Of a DNA stretch of 64,000 bases, positions 5,645 to 33,759 are shown piece by piece. Source of the stretch: Arthrobacter crystallopoietes (GTDB taxonomy: Bacteria; Actinomycetota; Actinomycetes; Actinomycetales; Micrococcaceae); the NCBI RefSeq assembly GCF_017603825.1, contig NZ_CP072014.1, positions 2,852,001-2,916,000 on the forward strand, read 5' to 3'. A model generated the notes under the pieces. It did no database searches. It worked only from the letters and a program-made list of their open reading frames with translations, and was not told where the DNA came from. The first letter of the stretch is position 1. Every line of letters begins with the position of its first letter. The translations under genes and the position numbers were made by a program.

Positions 5645-5662
5645 GCAAAGAGCGAACTGAAC

Positions 5663-5702
5663 AACGACGGCGGGGCGCGCCTTGGTAGGCCCCGCCGTCG
5701 TT
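5663..5702 (+). terminator. pheST terminator hairpin
   Basis: AACGACGGCGGGGC (5663-5676) and GCCCCGCCGTCGTT (5689-5702) form a perfect 14-bp stem with a 12-base loop. There is no T tract after it, typical of GC-rich actinobacterial hairpin terminators. Confidence 0.85.
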
Positions 5703-5723
5703 GGCGGTCTTGGAGGTAAGTGT

Positions 5724-6446
5724 ATGAGGGGTGAGGTCATCCTGCGGCTGGTCCGCCTGGCCGATTCCGGTTCCGGCATGTCCAGCCGCGGCTTCCGCCG
5801 GGGTGCCATCCGCAACCTGTCGCGTGACGCAGTGCGTCGCCTGGCCGCGGATGAGCTCGACGTCGAAACCGAACGTGTGCAGTTGGCGTTCGACTGCCGG
5901 GACTGCCTGCGCGGCAACGATGGAAGCCATGGCCAGCCGTACCTGCTGCTGGACGGAAATCCTGCGCCCGTTCGGGTCAGTTACAGCCGCAGCGGGGGCT
6001 GGCTGCTGGCCGCGCTGTCCTTCCGGCCGGTGCTCCTGGGTGTGGACCTGGAGGACACCGGATCGGCGGCCTTCGGCGAGGCCGACAACATCGACGCCGT
6101 GATGCTCACCCACGACGAACGCGCCCTGCTCGCCCGGGCTGTTGACCGCCGGCGCCTCCGCGCACAGCTCTGGACACGGAAGGAAGCCGTGCTGAAATCC
6201 ACCGGCCACGGCCTGCGCCTTGCCCCCGATGAGGTAGGGGTGGCGGATGCGGAAGGAAGCGCACTGCTGACCATCTGGCCCGGTTCCGCCGGGGAACGGC
6301 CGGGCGTGCAACTCGTGGACCTGCAGCTCACCCCGGCCATGGCCGACGGGACGGCCGTCCCGTCAACGCTGACCGCGGCTCTCGCCATCGGCGGTTCGGC
6401 CGACCCGGGTGTTATTTTCCGGGAAACTCTGGCAGTGCCGCGCTGA
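5724..6446 (+). CDS. 4'-phosphopantetheinyl transferase superfamily protein
   Basis: A Sfp-type enzyme of 240 residues that would move the phosphopantetheine arm of coenzyme A to a carrier-protein serine. Family signatures are visible: substrate-binding VSYSRSGGW, magnesium-binding GVDLED, and the W-x-x-KEA-x-x-K helix LWTRKEAVLKSTGHGLRL. The ATG at 5724 is chosen because GGAGG sits at 5712-5716; 14 upstream residues in the open frame are discarded. Its natural partner is probably the carrier domain (Ser546) of the large synthetase at 7821-11726, the only carrier protein recognised nearby. The last 35 bases overlap the convergent peptidase gene tail-to-tail, so the two cannot share an intervening terminator. 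Confidence 0.88.
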   Translation: MRGEVILRLVRLADSGSGMSSRGFRRGAIRNLSRDAVRRLAADELDVETERVQLAFDCRDCLRGNDGSHGQPYLLLDGNPAPVRVSYSRSGGWLLAALSFRPVLLGVDLEDTGSAAFGEADNIDAVMLTHDERALLARAVDRRRLRAQLWTRKEAVLKSTGHGLRLAPDEVGVADAEGSALLTIWPGSAGERPGVQLVDLQLTPAMADGTAVPSTLTAALAIGGSADPGVIFRETLAVPR

Positions 6447-7824
6447 CCAGCCATGGCTCCAGGAGCGTGGCGGCGGAAAAGTCCGGCCGCCCCGCTTCCG
6501 AGTCAGCGAGCTCGATGAACTGGCTTGTTGAGACGGATCCGTGCCGGTAGTCGGCGCACCAGCGGCGCAGAATGCGGAAAAACGGCTCGTCGCCGAGCGC
6601 GGTCCGCAGGGCGTGCAGGGCCAGGGCACCGCGTTTGTAGACCCGGTCATCGAACATCAGCTGCGGACCCGGATCGCCCACGGTGATGTCCTGTTTGAGC
6701 GCTGCGAGCATTTGCCAGGCGGCTTTGGCACGGCCGGCGGCAGGCAGGGAGCCGGAGGCCTCGGACCAGATCCACTCGGAATAGCACGCGAAGCCTTCGT
6801 GCAGCCAGATATCTTTCCAGCTTGCTGCCGTCAACGAATTGCCGAACCACTGGTGCGAGAGCTCATGCGCGATCAGGCGCTGCGCCTCCCACCCGTTGTC
6901 CAGGTGGTTGCGGCCGATGATGGACAGCGACTGGGCCTCCAACGGGATTTCCAGTTCGTCCTCGGCCACCACTACGGTGTACCGGTCAAAGGGGTACGGG
7001 CCGAAAGACCGGACGAATACTGCCATCATGTCTTCCTGCCGGGACAGGGCCGCGACGGCGTCCGTGAGCAGCGGTGCAGGCGCTGCGACCAGCTGGGCCG
7101 CGACGGCATCGCCCTCCGGGCCGGCTGGCCCCGGAGGCACAAGATCCTGCAGGACGTACCGGCCTATCTGGAGCGTGGCCAGATAGGTTGCCATGGGTTC
7201 GCGCATTTCATAAACCCAGGTTTCCCGGGAGGCCTTTTTATGGTGGCCTACCAGTTCGCCGTTGGCCACAGCGCGGTAGCCGGCGTCCGTGGTTGTGCTG
7301 ATGCGGAAGGTAGCTTTCTGGCTGGGGTGGTCGTTGCAAGGGAACCACGAGGAGGCGCCGTCGGGCTGCCCGGCGACCAACACGCCGTCGGTGAGTTCCT
7401 CCCACCCCACCTCGCCCCAATCGCCGTTAATCGGTGCGGGAGTGCCTTCGTAGCGGATATCCAGTACCAGCCGGGTCTCTGCGGGCAGCGGTTCCTTCAG
7501 TGCGAGAACCAGTTTGCCGTTGCGCTGCGACGTTTTCCTGGGGCGTTGCCCGTTGACCTGGACGCGGCTGGCCTGCAGCCCGGTCAGGTCCAGTTCCAGC
7601 CGGCTGGTGTCCCTGAGCGTGCGTCCGGTGAGCACGGCGCGTCCGGCCAGCCGGTTGGACGCCAGCTTGCACTCCAGGTCAAGGTCATAGTGCGTGACGA
7701 GCAGGTCGCCGGTGCCGCGGCCCGGAAGATAGGGATCCGGCAGCGGCGCAGACACAGCTGCCGGCAATGCAGCGGCAGGACCATCGGCTGAGGCATCGGC
7801 GGGACTTGATGATAGGCAGGTCAT
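6412..7824 (-). CDS. M1-family zinc aminopeptidase
   Basis: A 470-residue gluzincin peptidase. It has HELSHQWFGN with the zinc ligands His320 and His324, catalytic Glu321, and third ligand Glu343 in LHEGFACY, i.e. HExxH-18-E. The aminopeptidase motif usually written GAMEN is replaced by PLEAQ, as in a known bacterial subgroup; the protein is shorter than PepN because it lacks the C-terminal helical domain. No signal peptide or membrane segment is seen. The start is the ATG at 7824, which overlaps the stop of the upstream synthetase as ATGA, so translation is coupled; a TTG at 7842 is the alternative. Zinc aminopeptidases of HExxH type degrade epsilon-poly-lysine in Streptomyces, so I infer that this enzyme may trim or degrade the neighbour's product or protect the cell from it. 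A general peptide-cleaving role is equally possible. Confidence 0.9.
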   Translation of the reverse strand: MTCLSSSPADASADGPAAALPAAVSAPLPDPYLPGRGTGDLLVTHYDLDLECKLASNRLAGRAVLTGRTLRDTSRLELDLTGLQASRVQVNGQRPRKTSQRNGKLVLALKEPLPAETRLVLDIRYEGTPAPINGDWGEVGWEELTDGVLVAGQPDGASSWFPCNDHPSQKATFRISTTTDAGYRAVANGELVGHHKKASRETWVYEMREPMATYLATLQIGRYVLQDLVPPGPAGPEGDAVAAQLVAAPAPLLTDAVAALSRQEDMMAVFVRSFGPYPFDRYTVVVAEDELEIPLEAQSLSIIGRNHLDNGWEAQRLIAHELSHQWFGNSLTAASWKDIWLHEGFACYSEWIWSEASGSLPAAGRAKAAWQMLAALKQDITVGDPGPQLMFDDRVYKRGALALHALRTALGDEPFFRILRRWCADYRHGSVSTSQFIELADSEAGRPDFSAATLLEPWLVSAALPEFPGK

Positions 7825-10800
7825 GAGGTGGTAAACGTCCAAGGTCGTACGGGATTGCCCATCCAGTAGCTCGCCGCGGGCACGGTCTCTCCCCGCATCA
7901 CCAGGGAAGCCGGGCCAACGGTGGCGCCGTCGGCAAGGGAAGCGGCCGGCAGGATGACTCCGTGCGGGCCCATCGTGGCGCCGGCTGCGAGTTCCACCGT
8001 ATCAATGCTCATGATCCGATCGTGGAACAGGTGGGTCTGGACCACGCAGCCGCGGTTGACTGTGGCACCATCGCCGAGCCTGACCAGGTCCGCCTCGGGG
8101 AGCCAGTAGCTCTCGCACCAGACGCCATGGCCGATCTTCGCGCCCAGCGCCCGCAGCCACCAGACCAAAGCGGGTGTGCCGGCTGCGGCGCGGCCGAACC
8201 ACGGCGCGCTAACCAGTTCCACAAACGTGTCCACCACTTCATTCCGCCAGATGAACGAGCTCCACAGCGGATGCTCGCCGGGCTTGATCCGCCCGACCAG
8301 GAGCCACTTGGCCAGCACCGAAGTGCCGGCCGCGGCGGCGCCGGCCAGCATCAGTACCAGGCCGCCGGCGAGGGCGGCGGCGAGGTAGCCGTAGGTTCCG
8401 GCCAGCCAGTCAAAGACCGCGAGAACCACCAGGGCCAGTGCCACGGTGACGGCCACCGGAACAAAACGGCACAATTCCCAGAGTGTGCGCGCCAGCTTAA
8501 GCCTCGCCGGCGGGGCGAAGGTGCGGCTGGAATCCGCTTCGATGGAGGTCCGGCGCAGGCGTACCGGCGGGCTGCCCAGCCAGGAGGAACCGGCCTTGGC
8601 CTTCGACGGTGTGGCGGACAGGACGGCAACCAGCGAGTTCTTCGGCACGCGCCGTCCGGCCGCGGTCATGCCCGAGTTGCCCAGGAAGGACCGCTTGCCG
8701 ATCTTGGCCGGGGCGATCTTCATCCACCCGCCGCCAAGTTCATACGAGGCCACCATGGTGTCGTCCGCCAGGAAAGCACCCTCGCCGATGGTGGTCATCT
8801 TGGGAACCAGCAGCACGGTGGATGCCTCTACGTTGCGGCCTACCTTGGCGCCCAGCAGGCGCAGCCAGACGGGGGTAAACAGGCTCGCGTAGATGGGGAA
8901 GAGGATGTCGCGCGCCATGTCCAGCACGCGTTCGGTGGCCCAGACCTGCCAGCCCACCCGGCTGCGCACCCGGTGATAGCCCTCCTGCACGCCGAGCCCC
9001 AGCAGGCGGACCGTAACGAGAACCAGCACCAGGTTGGTCAGGAACCAGACCAACGCCGCGGCCGGCACGGCGGCGAGCAACGGCACAAACGCGGCCCACA
9101 GGCTGCTGTTGCCGGGCACCAGGAAAATAACGACGGCGATCGCGGCCGCCGCTGCGGCAAAAGGGATCAGCGCCAGGGCAGCGGAAGCCAAGGGGTAGAA
9201 GATGCTCCACAACGGGCTCGATTTTGCCGGGGGTTCCGGCCAGGCGTGCTTTGACTTGCCGGTGCGTTCGGCGGGGGAGCCGGAGAAATTGAGACCGGCC
9301 TTGACCTTGCCGGTGACAGCGGAGCCGGGCTCCACGGTGGCGCCGGCACCGATGCTGGTGCCCGGCATGAGCGTACTGCGCGCCCCGATGGTGGCCCCGG
9401 CCCCCACGCTGATGGCACCGATATGGACCCTGTCGCCGTCGAGCCACCAGCCGGAGAGGTCTACCTCGGGTTCGACGGACGCCCCCCGGCCCAGCGTGAG
9501 CAGGCCGGTCACCGGCGGTACCGAGTGCAGATCCACGTCCCGGCCGATGTCGGCACCGAGAGCGCGTGCGTAGTACGGGACGAAGGGGGCACTGGCGAGG
9601 GAGACGGCCGATGCCATGTCTGCGATCTGTTCGGCCAGCCACAACCGCAGATGCACCCGGCCCGAGCGCGGGTAGGTACCGGGCCGGAGCCCCCGCAGCA
9701 GCAGCCGGGCGGCGAGCACGGAGATGGCCATCCGCCCGGGCGGGCTGACAAAGACGGCCCAGCTGGCAAGGACCCACCACCAGGACAAGGTCGGCGCCGC
9801 CGTCAGCACGCCCAGGAGGGACAGTGAGTTGTTGAGGATCATCAGGTACGTCAGCCAGCGCATGCCGACCAGGACAGTCAGCGGGATCCCCATCAATGTC
9901 TGGAAGATCTGGCTCTTGCGCTGCGTGCGCCGGACCTGCCGTTCCCTCGGCTCGGCCTGCACTCCGTCCGGAACCGACTGGCGCGCGGCCTCAATGAGGG
10001 CGCCGATGCGGGGATGGGCGTAGATCTCCGACACGGCAATGGTGGGGTACCGGACCCGCAGGGCCGACACGAGCTGGGCCGCAGCCAGCGAGCCCCCGCC
10101 GCTGGCGAAGAAGTCCGCATCCAGCGAGGCGACCGGCAGGCCGAGCACCGAACTCCACTGCTGCGCAATCCAGGCGGCGTCCGCCTCCAGCCGGAGCTCT
10201 CCTGCGCCGTCGGCCGGCTCGGAGCCCGGCAGCGGCCAGGGCAAGGCGTTGCGGTCCACTTTGCCGCTGGTCTTGGTGGGCAGGGTGTCGACGACGGCCA
10301 GCAGCGGGATCAACGGAGCCGGCAACTGGCCGCCCAAGAGCTCGCGGGCGCTGTCGACGTCGTAATCAGCGGGCGCCGCCAGGTAGCCGACCAGGATCTG
10401 GTTGCCCGCGGCGGTGGTCTTCACCGCGGCCGCGGCGCCGGAGACGCCGGGCAGGGCCTGCAGGGCGCTGTCCACTTCCCCGAGTTCAATCCGTCGGCCG
10501 CCGAGCTTGACCTGCTCATCCGCCCGGCCGACAAAGAGCAGGCCGGCCGGGTCATAGGTGACCAGATCGCCGCTGCGGTAGGCGCGCGCCCAGCCCAGGG
10601 ACGGCATCGGCGCGTACTTCTCCGCGTCCTTTGCCGGATCGAGGTAGCGGGCCAGGCCCACGCCGCCGATGATCAGCTCGCCCGTGCCGCCCTCGATGAC
10701 CGGAACGCCATCGGAATCCACCACGGCCAGGTCCCAGCCGTCCAGCGGCAGGCCGATCCGCACCGGACCGTCCCCGCCCAGCGGCGCGGCGCAGGCCACC

Positions 10801-11726
10801 ACGGTTGCCTCCGTAGGGCCATAGGTGTTCCAGACATCGCGGTCCGCCACGGCCAGCCGGCGTGCCAGTTCCGGCGGGCAGGCTTCGCCGCCGAAGATGA
10901 GCAAGCGGACATTTTCCAACGCCTCGGCCGGCCACAGTGCGGCCAGCGTCGGCACCGTGGAAACCGCCGTAATTCCGCGGCTGAGCAGCCACGGGCCCAG
11001 ATCCATGCCGCTGCGGACCAGGGAGCGCGGCGCCGGCACGAGGCAGGAGCCATGCCGCCAGGCGAGCCACATTTCCTCACAGGAGGCATCGAAGGCCACC
11101 GAGAGCCCGGCCAGCACCCGGTCCTGCGGACCCAACGGCTCATGCGGCAGGAAGATCCGGGCCTCGGCGTCCACAAAGGCGGCGGCGGACCGGTGGGTGA
11201 CAGCAACGCCCTTCGGCGTCCCGGTGGAGCCGGAGGTGAAGATCACCCAGGCATCGTCTGCCAGCTCGGCCGGCCGCGGATTCGGGAACGGCGCCGGACG
11301 CTCCGGCGACGTCACGATTTCGCCATCGGCTTTCAGAATGCCGGCCACTTTGGCCTCGCTGAAAACCAGCCGGGCGCGTTCATCGGGGTCATCCGCATCG
11401 ACCGGGACGTAGGCCGCGCCGATGTACAGGGTCGCGAGAATGCTGACATACAGTTCGCGCGTGCCGGAAGGAATCCGAATGCCCACCTTGTCGCCCGCCC
11501 CGAGCCCGGCCTCATGCAGCAGCTTCGCCTGCCGGCGGACGGCCTCCAGCAGTTCGGCGTAGCTCAGGGGCTGCTGCCCATCGTCCAGCGCCGAAGCGTC
11601 CGGGTAGGCCTCCGCGCTCGCCGTCAGGATGTCTATCAGGGTCCGGGGCGGGGGAGCGCTGCCGGCACCGGGCAGCTGGGGTTCATGCACAATCACTTGA
11701 ACACCATGGCCAACGAAGGTGAACAA
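7821..11726 (-). CDS. Pls/PosA-family non-ribosomal peptide synthetase (epsilon-poly-lysine synthetase-like)
   Basis: A 1301-residue membrane enzyme that joins amino acids without ribosomes. Domains: adenylation (about 28-500; TSGSTGTPKG at 164-173, NTYGPTEATV at 300-309, YRSGDLV, GRADEQVKLGGRRIELGEV, Lys489), carrier (about 515-580; phosphopantetheine site Ser546 in ASGGGSLAAAQ), then about six membrane segments (near 610-640, 645-662, 840-870, 878-908, 1087-1106, 1112-1140) alternating with three soluble left-handed beta-helix, acetyltransferase-like domains (about 720-815, 955-1060, 1195-1290). This is the layout of epsilon-poly-L-lysine synthetase, whose tandem C domains form isopeptide bonds. 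The by-eye specificity code D213 A214 E217 S256 I277 G279 T301 V309 V310 K489 suggests a basic amino acid, probably lysine. The open frame begins at TTG 11726; in-frame GTGs at 11696 and 11690 are alternatives, and none has a clear ribosome binding site. Product is inferred. Confidence 0.9.
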   Translation of the reverse strand: MFTFVGHGVQVIVHEPQLPGAGSAPPPRTLIDILTASAEAYPDASALDDGQQPLSYAELLEAVRRQAKLLHEAGLGAGDKVGIRIPSGTRELYVSILATLYIGAAYVPVDADDPDERARLVFSEAKVAGILKADGEIVTSPERPAPFPNPRPAELADDAWVIFTSGSTGTPKGVAVTHRSAAAFVDAEARIFLPHEPLGPQDRVLAGLSVAFDASCEEMWLAWRHGSCLVPAPRSLVRSGMDLGPWLLSRGITAVSTVPTLAALWPAEALENVRLLIFGGEACPPELARRLAVADRDVWNTYGPTEATVVACAAPLGGDGPVRIGLPLDGWDLAVVDSDGVPVIEGGTGELIIGGVGLARYLDPAKDAEKYAPMPSLGWARAYRSGDLVTYDPAGLLFVGRADEQVKLGGRRIELGEVDSALQALPGVSGAAAAVKTTAAGNQILVGYLAAPADYDVDSARELLGGQLPAPLIPLLAVVDTLPTKTSGKVDRNALPWPLPGSEPADGAGELRLEADAAWIAQQWSSVLGLPVASLDADFFASGGGSLAAAQLVSALRVRYPTIAVSEIYAHPRIGALIEAARQSVPDGVQAEPRERQVRRTQRKSQIFQTLMGIPLTVLVGMRWLTYLMILNNSLSLLGVLTAAPTLSWWWVLASWAVFVSPPGRMAISVLAARLLLRGLRPGTYPRSGRVHLRLWLAEQIADMASAVSLASAPFVPYYARALGADIGRDVDLHSVPPVTGLLTLGRGASVEPEVDLSGWWLDGDRVHIGAISVGAGATIGARSTLMPGTSIGAGATVEPGSAVTGKVKAGLNFSGSPAERTGKSKHAWPEPPAKSSPLWSIFYPLASAALALIPFAAAAAAIAVVIFLVPGNSSLWAAFVPLLAAVPAAALVWFLTNLVLVLVTVRLLGLGVQEGYHRVRSRVGWQVWATERVLDMARDILFPIYASLFTPVWLRLLGAKVGRNVEASTVLLVPKMTTIGEGAFLADDTMVASYELGGGWMKIAPAKIGKRSFLGNSGMTAAGRRVPKNSLVAVLSATPSKAKAGSSWLGSPPVRLRRTSIEADSSRTFAPPARLKLARTLWELCRFVPVAVTVALALVVLAVFDWLAGTYGYLAAALAGGLVLMLAGAAAAGTSVLAKWLLVGRIKPGEHPLWSSFIWRNEVVDTFVELVSAPWFGRAAAGTPALVWWLRALGAKIGHGVWCESYWLPEADLVRLGDGATVNRGCVVQTHLFHDRIMSIDTVELAAGATMGPHGVILPAASLADGATVGPASLVMRGETVPAASYWMGNPVRPWTFTTS

Positions 11727-11769
11727 GAGGTGGCCTACCGGCCGGTACCAGGCCCAAAAGTGGCGAAGG

Positions 11770-28310: not shown

Positions 28311-33433
<5,123 letters not shown>

Positions 33434-33640
33434 CACACACTTCCCTGGCCGCCGAACCGACTTCAAACGGTTCCCGGCAACATACAGGGGAAGGAAAAGA
33501 TACGTGCATCGCGTCCACTATGTGGTTCCCGGACAACAACCGTCCGCAGGAACACACAATTGCATACAGTCCAACCATGAACTGATGTAACCACAGGTTT
33601 CACCCCCAGCCCGCGGAACCGGGCCCGGAGGGTGGCAAGG
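33434..33640 (+). other. 23S-5S spacer
   Basis: About 207 bases without a gene. It holds the 3' arm of the 23S processing stem (33509-33528) and a GC-rich stretch CCCGCGGAACCGGGCCCGG just before 5S. Confidence 0.8.
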
Positions 33641-33759
33641 GTTACGGCGGTCATAGCGTGGGGGAAACGCCCGGTCCCATTCCGAACCCGGAAGCTAAGA
33701 CCCACAGCGCCGATGGTACTGCACCCGGGAGGGTGTGGGAGAGTAGGTCACCGCCGGAC
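33641..33759 (+). rRNA. rrf: 5S ribosomal RNA
   Basis: About 119 bases with the 5S landmarks CCCGGTCCCATTCCGAACCC and GAGAGTAGGTCACCGCCGG. The ends GTTACGGCGG and CCGCCGGAC pair to form helix I. Confidence 0.95.

Follow-up and report, generated by a model that had tools for sequence, protein, structure and literature searches.

A predicted epsilon-poly-L-lysine operon of pls-pldII type beside a probably shared carrier activator in Arthrobacter crystallopoietes

Three adjoining genes in the genome of Arthrobacter crystallopoietes raise the question of whether a bacterium of this type carries a closed set of functions for making, activating and degrading a cationic amino-acid polymer, or whether only part of the set belongs together. 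The genes lie in a stretch of 64,000 nucleotides (contig NZ_CP072014.1, positions 2,852,001 to 2,916,000; hereafter the window, with positions counted from its first letter), for which a preliminary description had proposed a synthetase with an adjoining carrier-activating transferase and zinc aminopeptidase. All three are present, namely a synthetase and an M1 peptidase on the minus strand and a phosphopantetheinyl transferase on the plus strand, and each is borne out by profile matches and motifs. We consider it highly probable that the locus is a pls-pldII operon for epsilon-polylysine that is served by a shared transferase.

The synthetase and its peptidase

The open frames as found span 1301 codons (7821-11726, minus strand), 476 codons (6412-7842, minus strand) and 254 codons (5682-6446, plus strand). 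The features of the minus-strand pair are:

7821..11726, minus strand: pls, epsilon-poly-L-lysine-type synthetase as predicted from TIGR02353, the 7wew match, the pocket and the model
10227..11624, minus strand: Pls adenylation domain (AMP-binding plus C-terminal part, approximately residues 35-500), from Pfam and alignment to 7wew 22-501
9987..10172, minus strand: Pls carrier domain, serine 546 in GGGSL (PP-binding, residues 519-580)
7824..9944, minus strand: predicted Pls C-terminal membrane/polymerisation region, residues 595-1301 (AlphaFold2 model)
6412..7824, minus strand: predicted pldII-like M1 zinc aminopeptidase (PF01433 and PF17900, HExxH-x18-E, gene position)

On the combined evidence of sequence and model, the frame at 7821-11726 is a Pls/PosA-type synthetase. 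Pfam finds one adenylation domain (AMP-binding, residues 35-360) and one carrier domain (PP-binding, 519-580), as had been described, together with a single Hexapep stretch above cut-off (773-806); at E <= 0.01 it returns only AMP-binding, PP-binding, Hexapep and Hexapep_2, with no condensation (C) or thioesterase (TE) domain. The C-terminal region falls inside the Pls/PosA family, both by the NCBIfam profile TIGR02353 ('Pls/PosA family non-ribosomal peptide synthetase'), which scores 713.5 bits over residues 608-1293 against a cut-off of 423.1, and by the PosA-like fold of an AlphaFold2 model. This model of residues 595-1301, built from 36 sequences (mean predicted local distance difference test score, pLDDT, 89.3; predicted template modelling score, pTM, 0.89), repeats one unit three times, each unit made up of two paired helices, then a strand, two further helices and a beta-helix, with the helix pairs at approximately residues 603-676, 854-910 and 1074-1144, and the PosA model in PMC10522769 is described in the same terms. 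The preliminary description had counted about six membrane segments and three hexapeptide-like domains; the model agrees with its six helices and three beta-helices, whereas four clear membrane segments are all that a simple hydropathy scan yields, and by sequence just one Hexapep stretch passes. The longest frame opens with TTG at 11726, but the start is likelier to be GTG at 11696 or 11690, both in frame, because most alignments of the closer homologues set in only at residues 8-17; a single one, from genome G136, starts at residue 1. The frame is no chance reading, since the ratio of nonsynonymous to synonymous substitution rates (dN/dS) of pls against four same-genus relatives is 0.13-0.18.

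The substrate pocket points to lysine. The best Protein Data Bank chain for Pls is the epsilon-polylysine synthetase adenylation (A) domain 7wew, which we take to be from Streptomyces albulus, at 659 bits (next best, 404). The window's A domain shares 67% identity with it, and the pocket DAESIGTVVK agrees at 10/10 positions, which follow PheA numbering. The codes printed in PMC10522769 are consistent with the positions used; according to the same source, the second pocket position holds alanine in lysine enzymes, methionine in PosA (ornithine) and phenylalanine in a diaminopropionate enzyme. Epsilon-poly-L-lysine is the likeliest product as judged from sequence, because of this pocket identity at all ten positions. 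The Pls-type synthetase of the preliminary description is supported by TIGR02353, the 7wew match, the pocket and the model.

The comparative results rest on 149 genomes of the family, that of the window included. The 68 family loci are the clade-1 synthetase loci examined, with the window's own locus outside this count, and a further 12 loci come from beyond the family. Left out of the 68 are a synthetase on contig C9 of genome G067 (62% identical and cut by the contig end, with a peptidase match following at once) and a second, partial match in G055 that contains a stop; interrupted synthetases in G144 (two stops) and G010 (one stop) are within it. Two clades part in the A-domain tree with support of 99/94: clade 2 has 14 rows, and clade 1 has 32, each of which has a peptidase beside it. 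The pocket DAESIGTVVK occurs in 83 of the 98 loci with a synthetase-like open reading frame, comprising 68/68 clade-1 family loci, 12/12 loci outside the family and 3/15 clade-2 loci; the remaining 15 hold DAESIGTVIK in 12 cases and other codes in three, one of them L106, the A-carrier protein of the split system treated below. Among 80 clade-1 rows, at least 98% retain carrier serine 546; among 15 clade-2 rows the figure is at least 93%.

The clade-2 proteins (L098, L099, L101, L124-L129 and others) are lysine-pocket synthetases approximately 50% identical to the Pls of the window. Eleven of their 15 loci are without an M1 peptidase in the stretch examined and four have one approximately 3.3-3.8 kb away, while some genomes carry synthetases of both clades. 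Additionally, five Mycobacterium plasmid records hold Pls/PosA-annotated genes approximately 60% identical to the pls of the window.

The peptidase gene follows pls directly, its ATG at 7824 overlapping the pls stop as ATGA. The protein contains the M1 domains PF01433 and PF17900 above the Pfam cut-off and the motif HExxH-x18-E, which is found in 80/80 neighbours of clade-1 pls genes. Its closest solved sequences are the 474-residue zinc metalloproteases 6a8z and 6iff, presumably Deinococcus M1dr (174 bits over residues 31-474). In every one of these loci, 68/68 within the family and 12/12 outside it, a peptidase gene comes after that of the synthetase on the same strand, with an estimated start between -43 and +272 bases from the synthetase end in the 68 family loci. 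At a cut of E < 1e-50, it is found in 75 of the 80 genomes with a synthetase relative and in none of the 69 without one; two of these 69 have weaker matches, of 2.3e-41 and 3.4e-43, that fall short of this cut. Among the five synthetase genomes without it, G049, G061, G083 and G103 hold only relatives at 47-49% identity and G105 only relatives at approximately 30%. We conclude on these grounds of sequence and gene order that the minus-strand pair forms a pls-pldII operon and that the M1 peptidase is dedicated to the synthetase. In S. albulus, pldII is likewise reported to be translationally coupled to pls (PMC9223678).

By analogy with characterised relatives, Pls would activate L-lysine with ATP and load it onto its own carrier, after which the membrane-embedded C-terminal region would join lysines via the epsilon-amine and pass the chain across the membrane. 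The M1 enzyme, translationally coupled to Pls, may then trim or remove the polymer, and such trimming could keep chain length in check and shield the producing cell, in line with what is reported for PldII of S. albulus. The Pls carrier would be brought into its active form by the Sfp-type transferase.

Distribution, loss and possible role of the pair

A synthetase relative (E <= 1e-100) occurs in 80 of the 149 sampled genomes, so that pls is ordinary in its family and the present gene is an instance of an already known kind. The pair can also be lost. At L102, a same-genus locus 92-93% identical to the window, exactly the following segment of 5.28 kb is missing:

6483..11765, no strand: segment missing in L102 by blastn (pls and nearly all of pldII)

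The blastn pieces end at window position 6482 and resume at 11766, with 3 bases between them (L102:9575-9579). Since 36 bases of sequence belonging to pldII only (6447-6482) are left there, pls and pldII were lost together as a block. The converse, that the pair is a recent arrival, was rejected in view of this remnant, which makes the gap read as a loss, and of the presence of relatives of both pheT and qor in the stretch in 61 of the 68 family loci.

The block loss bears on what the polymer is for. The pair may be silent in culture, or may have a cell-surface rather than an antimicrobial role; this alternative is compatible with the favoured chemistry and we regard it as possible, though the less probable case. 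The loss at L102 is in keeping with it, as is the report that Corynebacterium variabile is free of polymer in culture even though its gene works in S. coelicolor (PMC8117764). The purifying selection on pls says only that the protein is used and does not separate the roles. The clean loss in a relative that is 92-93% identical offers a natural comparison for the role of the polymer.

The carrier activator and a second system

The transferase gene stands on the other strand, between pheT and the operon:

5724..6446, plus strand: predicted Sfp-type 4'-phosphopantetheinyl transferase (PF01648 and motifs; behind pheST, convergent with the peptidase gene)
5662..5703, plus strand: 15-pair hairpin between pheT and the transferase gene, with no T run after it
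28312-33759, plus strand: ribosomal RNA operon (16S, 23S, 5S), farther along the window

The gene begins with ATG at 5724, the start already given in the preliminary description, a few bases downstream of GGAGG, and has 240 codons; the segment 5645-5723 before it folds with -40.3 kcal/mol (z-score of -3.81 against shuffles). On its sequence the protein is of Sfp type, with a PF01648 match (40.8 bits, cut-off 25), GVD and WxxKEAxxK motifs in the forms GVDLE and WTRKEAVLK, and approximately twice the size of AcpS; its score against NCBIfam TIGR00556 is 19.8, below the cut-off of 45.35. Residues G106, D108, W150, E154, A155 and K158 are invariant in 38 aligned transferase sequences. Only two PF01648 matches were found in the source genome, the other lying in a 117-codon frame, which makes this the only Sfp-size transferase found there. 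The same genome has seven PP-binding matches: one in a short protein, one being the Pls carrier, four in a single protein and one in its neighbour.

Unlike the peptidase, the transferase is not a constant partner of the synthetase. It is the convergent neighbour of the pair in 50 of the 68 family loci, stands elsewhere in the stretch in 10 and was not found in 8 (among them L093, whose stretch stops at the edge of its contig). Outside the family it is near the pair in 1/12 loci, and none was found in the stretch examined at four pls-bearing loci of the same class (L117-L120), where peptidases 44-47% identical to that of the window are present. At L102 and L103, both of the same genus, the stretch from pheT to qor still holds the transferase but no synthetase or peptidase; in G038 a transferase that is more distant lies on a different contig. 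Because it is kept without the pair in these two same-genus genomes, the transferase is best read as a general carrier activator that lies outside the pls-pldII operon and is probably shared with other pathways. The make, activate and degrade unit of the preliminary description, with a transferase dedicated to the synthetase, is therefore improbable, and the claim of self-containment is not supported: the gene follows pheST on the strand opposite to the pair, separated from pheST by a hairpin, was not found near the pair in 8/68 and 11/12 loci, outlives the pair, and is the sole Sfp-size transferase found in a genome with other carriers. What speaks for a dedicated transferase is its frequent convergent position beside the peptidase gene and its co-occurrence with the synthetase.

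The latter is one of several points that weigh against our reading. Of the 80 genomes that have a synthetase relative, 75 match the transferase profile, versus 21 of the 69 that have none (raw counts, uncorrected for relatedness), and of the five misses G075 and G142 show a weak match in their loci, which leaves room for a closer tie between transferase and synthetase. Three of the eight sampled same-genus genomes (G007, G038, G105) are without a clade-1 synthetase. That S. albulus PldII is an M1 peptidase is our assumption, and the likeness drawn here is one of gene position, not of sequence. Additionally, 7wew sits on the branch that joins clades 1 and 2 and is no member of clade 1, and an outgroup tree leaves its position relative to the two clades unsettled. 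Because of that placement we assign the present Pls, from sequence, to the lysine-type group and do not claim strict orthology to the crystallised enzyme. Lastly, PMC9223678 calls PldII an aminopeptidase outside the membrane.

That the operon makes another cationic polymer, of ornithine, diaminobutyrate, diaminopropionate or beta-lysine, is very unlikely, for although the Pls/PosA family is known to make such products (PMC8117764, PMC10522769) and genes of the arginine pathway, a source of ornithine, lie beyond qor, the pocket is identical to that of 7wew with alanine at the second position, and no diamino-acid pathway gene besides the arg genes was found among the neighbours scanned.

A further Pls-like system lies outside the window, in a five-gene run at L106:5541-14623 (G000:C1:3227540-3236622) that encodes, in order, a PALP protein, a four-carrier protein, an A-carrier protein, a TauD protein and a protein of ornithine-cyclodeaminase type. 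The four-carrier protein (C1:3228610-3231927) is the second TIGR02353 protein of the genome and has four tandem carriers and no A domain. All five genes occur in seven of the eight sampled same-genus genomes; G105 has the other four, its contig beginning before the second gene. Similar runs are found in Kocuria, Geodermatophilus, Pseudonocardia and Streptomyces records, the likeness being in the gene run, and further copies of the tandem-carrier protein, with none of the other four genes in the stretch, stand at 6 of the 17 loci that have such a protein (L153, L154, L156, L159, L162, L164). In S. albulus PD-1, homologues of cysteine synthetase and ornithine cyclodeaminase are reported to make the diaminopropionate of PDAP (PMC4668381). 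Judged by its gene content, the run resembles a split system of the diaminopropionate type, for a polymer or a peptide, and it is less familiar than the pls-pldII finding. Since the transferase is the only one of its type in the genome, it would also serve this second system. We tentatively propose, at somewhat less than an even chance, two amino-acid polymer systems on one carrier activator: the Pls of the window and a split machine in which a membrane four-carrier polymerising protein is loaded by the A-carrier protein and supplied through a pathway of diaminopropionate type that includes a TauD-type oxygenase. If the transferase does serve both, that would account for its survival without pls in two genomes of the genus, both of which have the split system as well.

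Comparison with known systems

The preliminary description held such a system to be uncharacterised in Arthrobacter-type bacteria, a claim overtaken by the literature, where homologues and operon are already in print (PMC8117764, PMC11078813). Pls homologues were reported in 2021 in Arthrobacter, Micrococcus, Glutamicibacter and other coryneform genera, and a pls-peptidase operon was described in Streptomyces and Corynebacterium (PMC8117764); a review (PMC8506220) repeats the homologues for Arthrobacter. NAPAA clusters are listed in all nine Micrococcaceae and Dermatophilaceae genomes of PMC11078813 and also for Arthrobacter relatives in PMC12025171. Within the available text of these published accounts of Arthrobacter Pls homologues, we found no tested Arthrobacter enzyme. 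The locus extends a published kind of system by a well-supported pls-pldII operon of an Arthrobacter-type genome, and the counts show the synthetase to be accompanied almost constantly by the peptidase but not by the transferase.

Among individual systems, the solved proteins 6a8z and 6iff resemble the peptidase as two-domain M1 zinc metalloproteases. PosA of Acinetobacter baumannii, a delta-poly-L-ornithine synthetase, shares the Pls/PosA family and the description of the C-terminal fold, but has the ornithine pocket DMEHNGTVSK in place of DAESIGTVVK (PMC10522769). The Pls of C. variabile and other coryneforms shares the lysine-type pocket and a peptidase gene in its operon (PMC8117764); it differs in that the C. 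variabile gene has been reported to yield epsilon-polylysine in S. coelicolor, whereas the Pls of the window is known from sequence alone. The Pls-PldII pair of S. albulus is alike in layout, with the same domain order, a pocket that agrees with 7wew throughout and a peptidase gene directly behind and coupled to that of the synthetase, while the A domain of the window, 67% identical to 7wew, marks the distance between the two.

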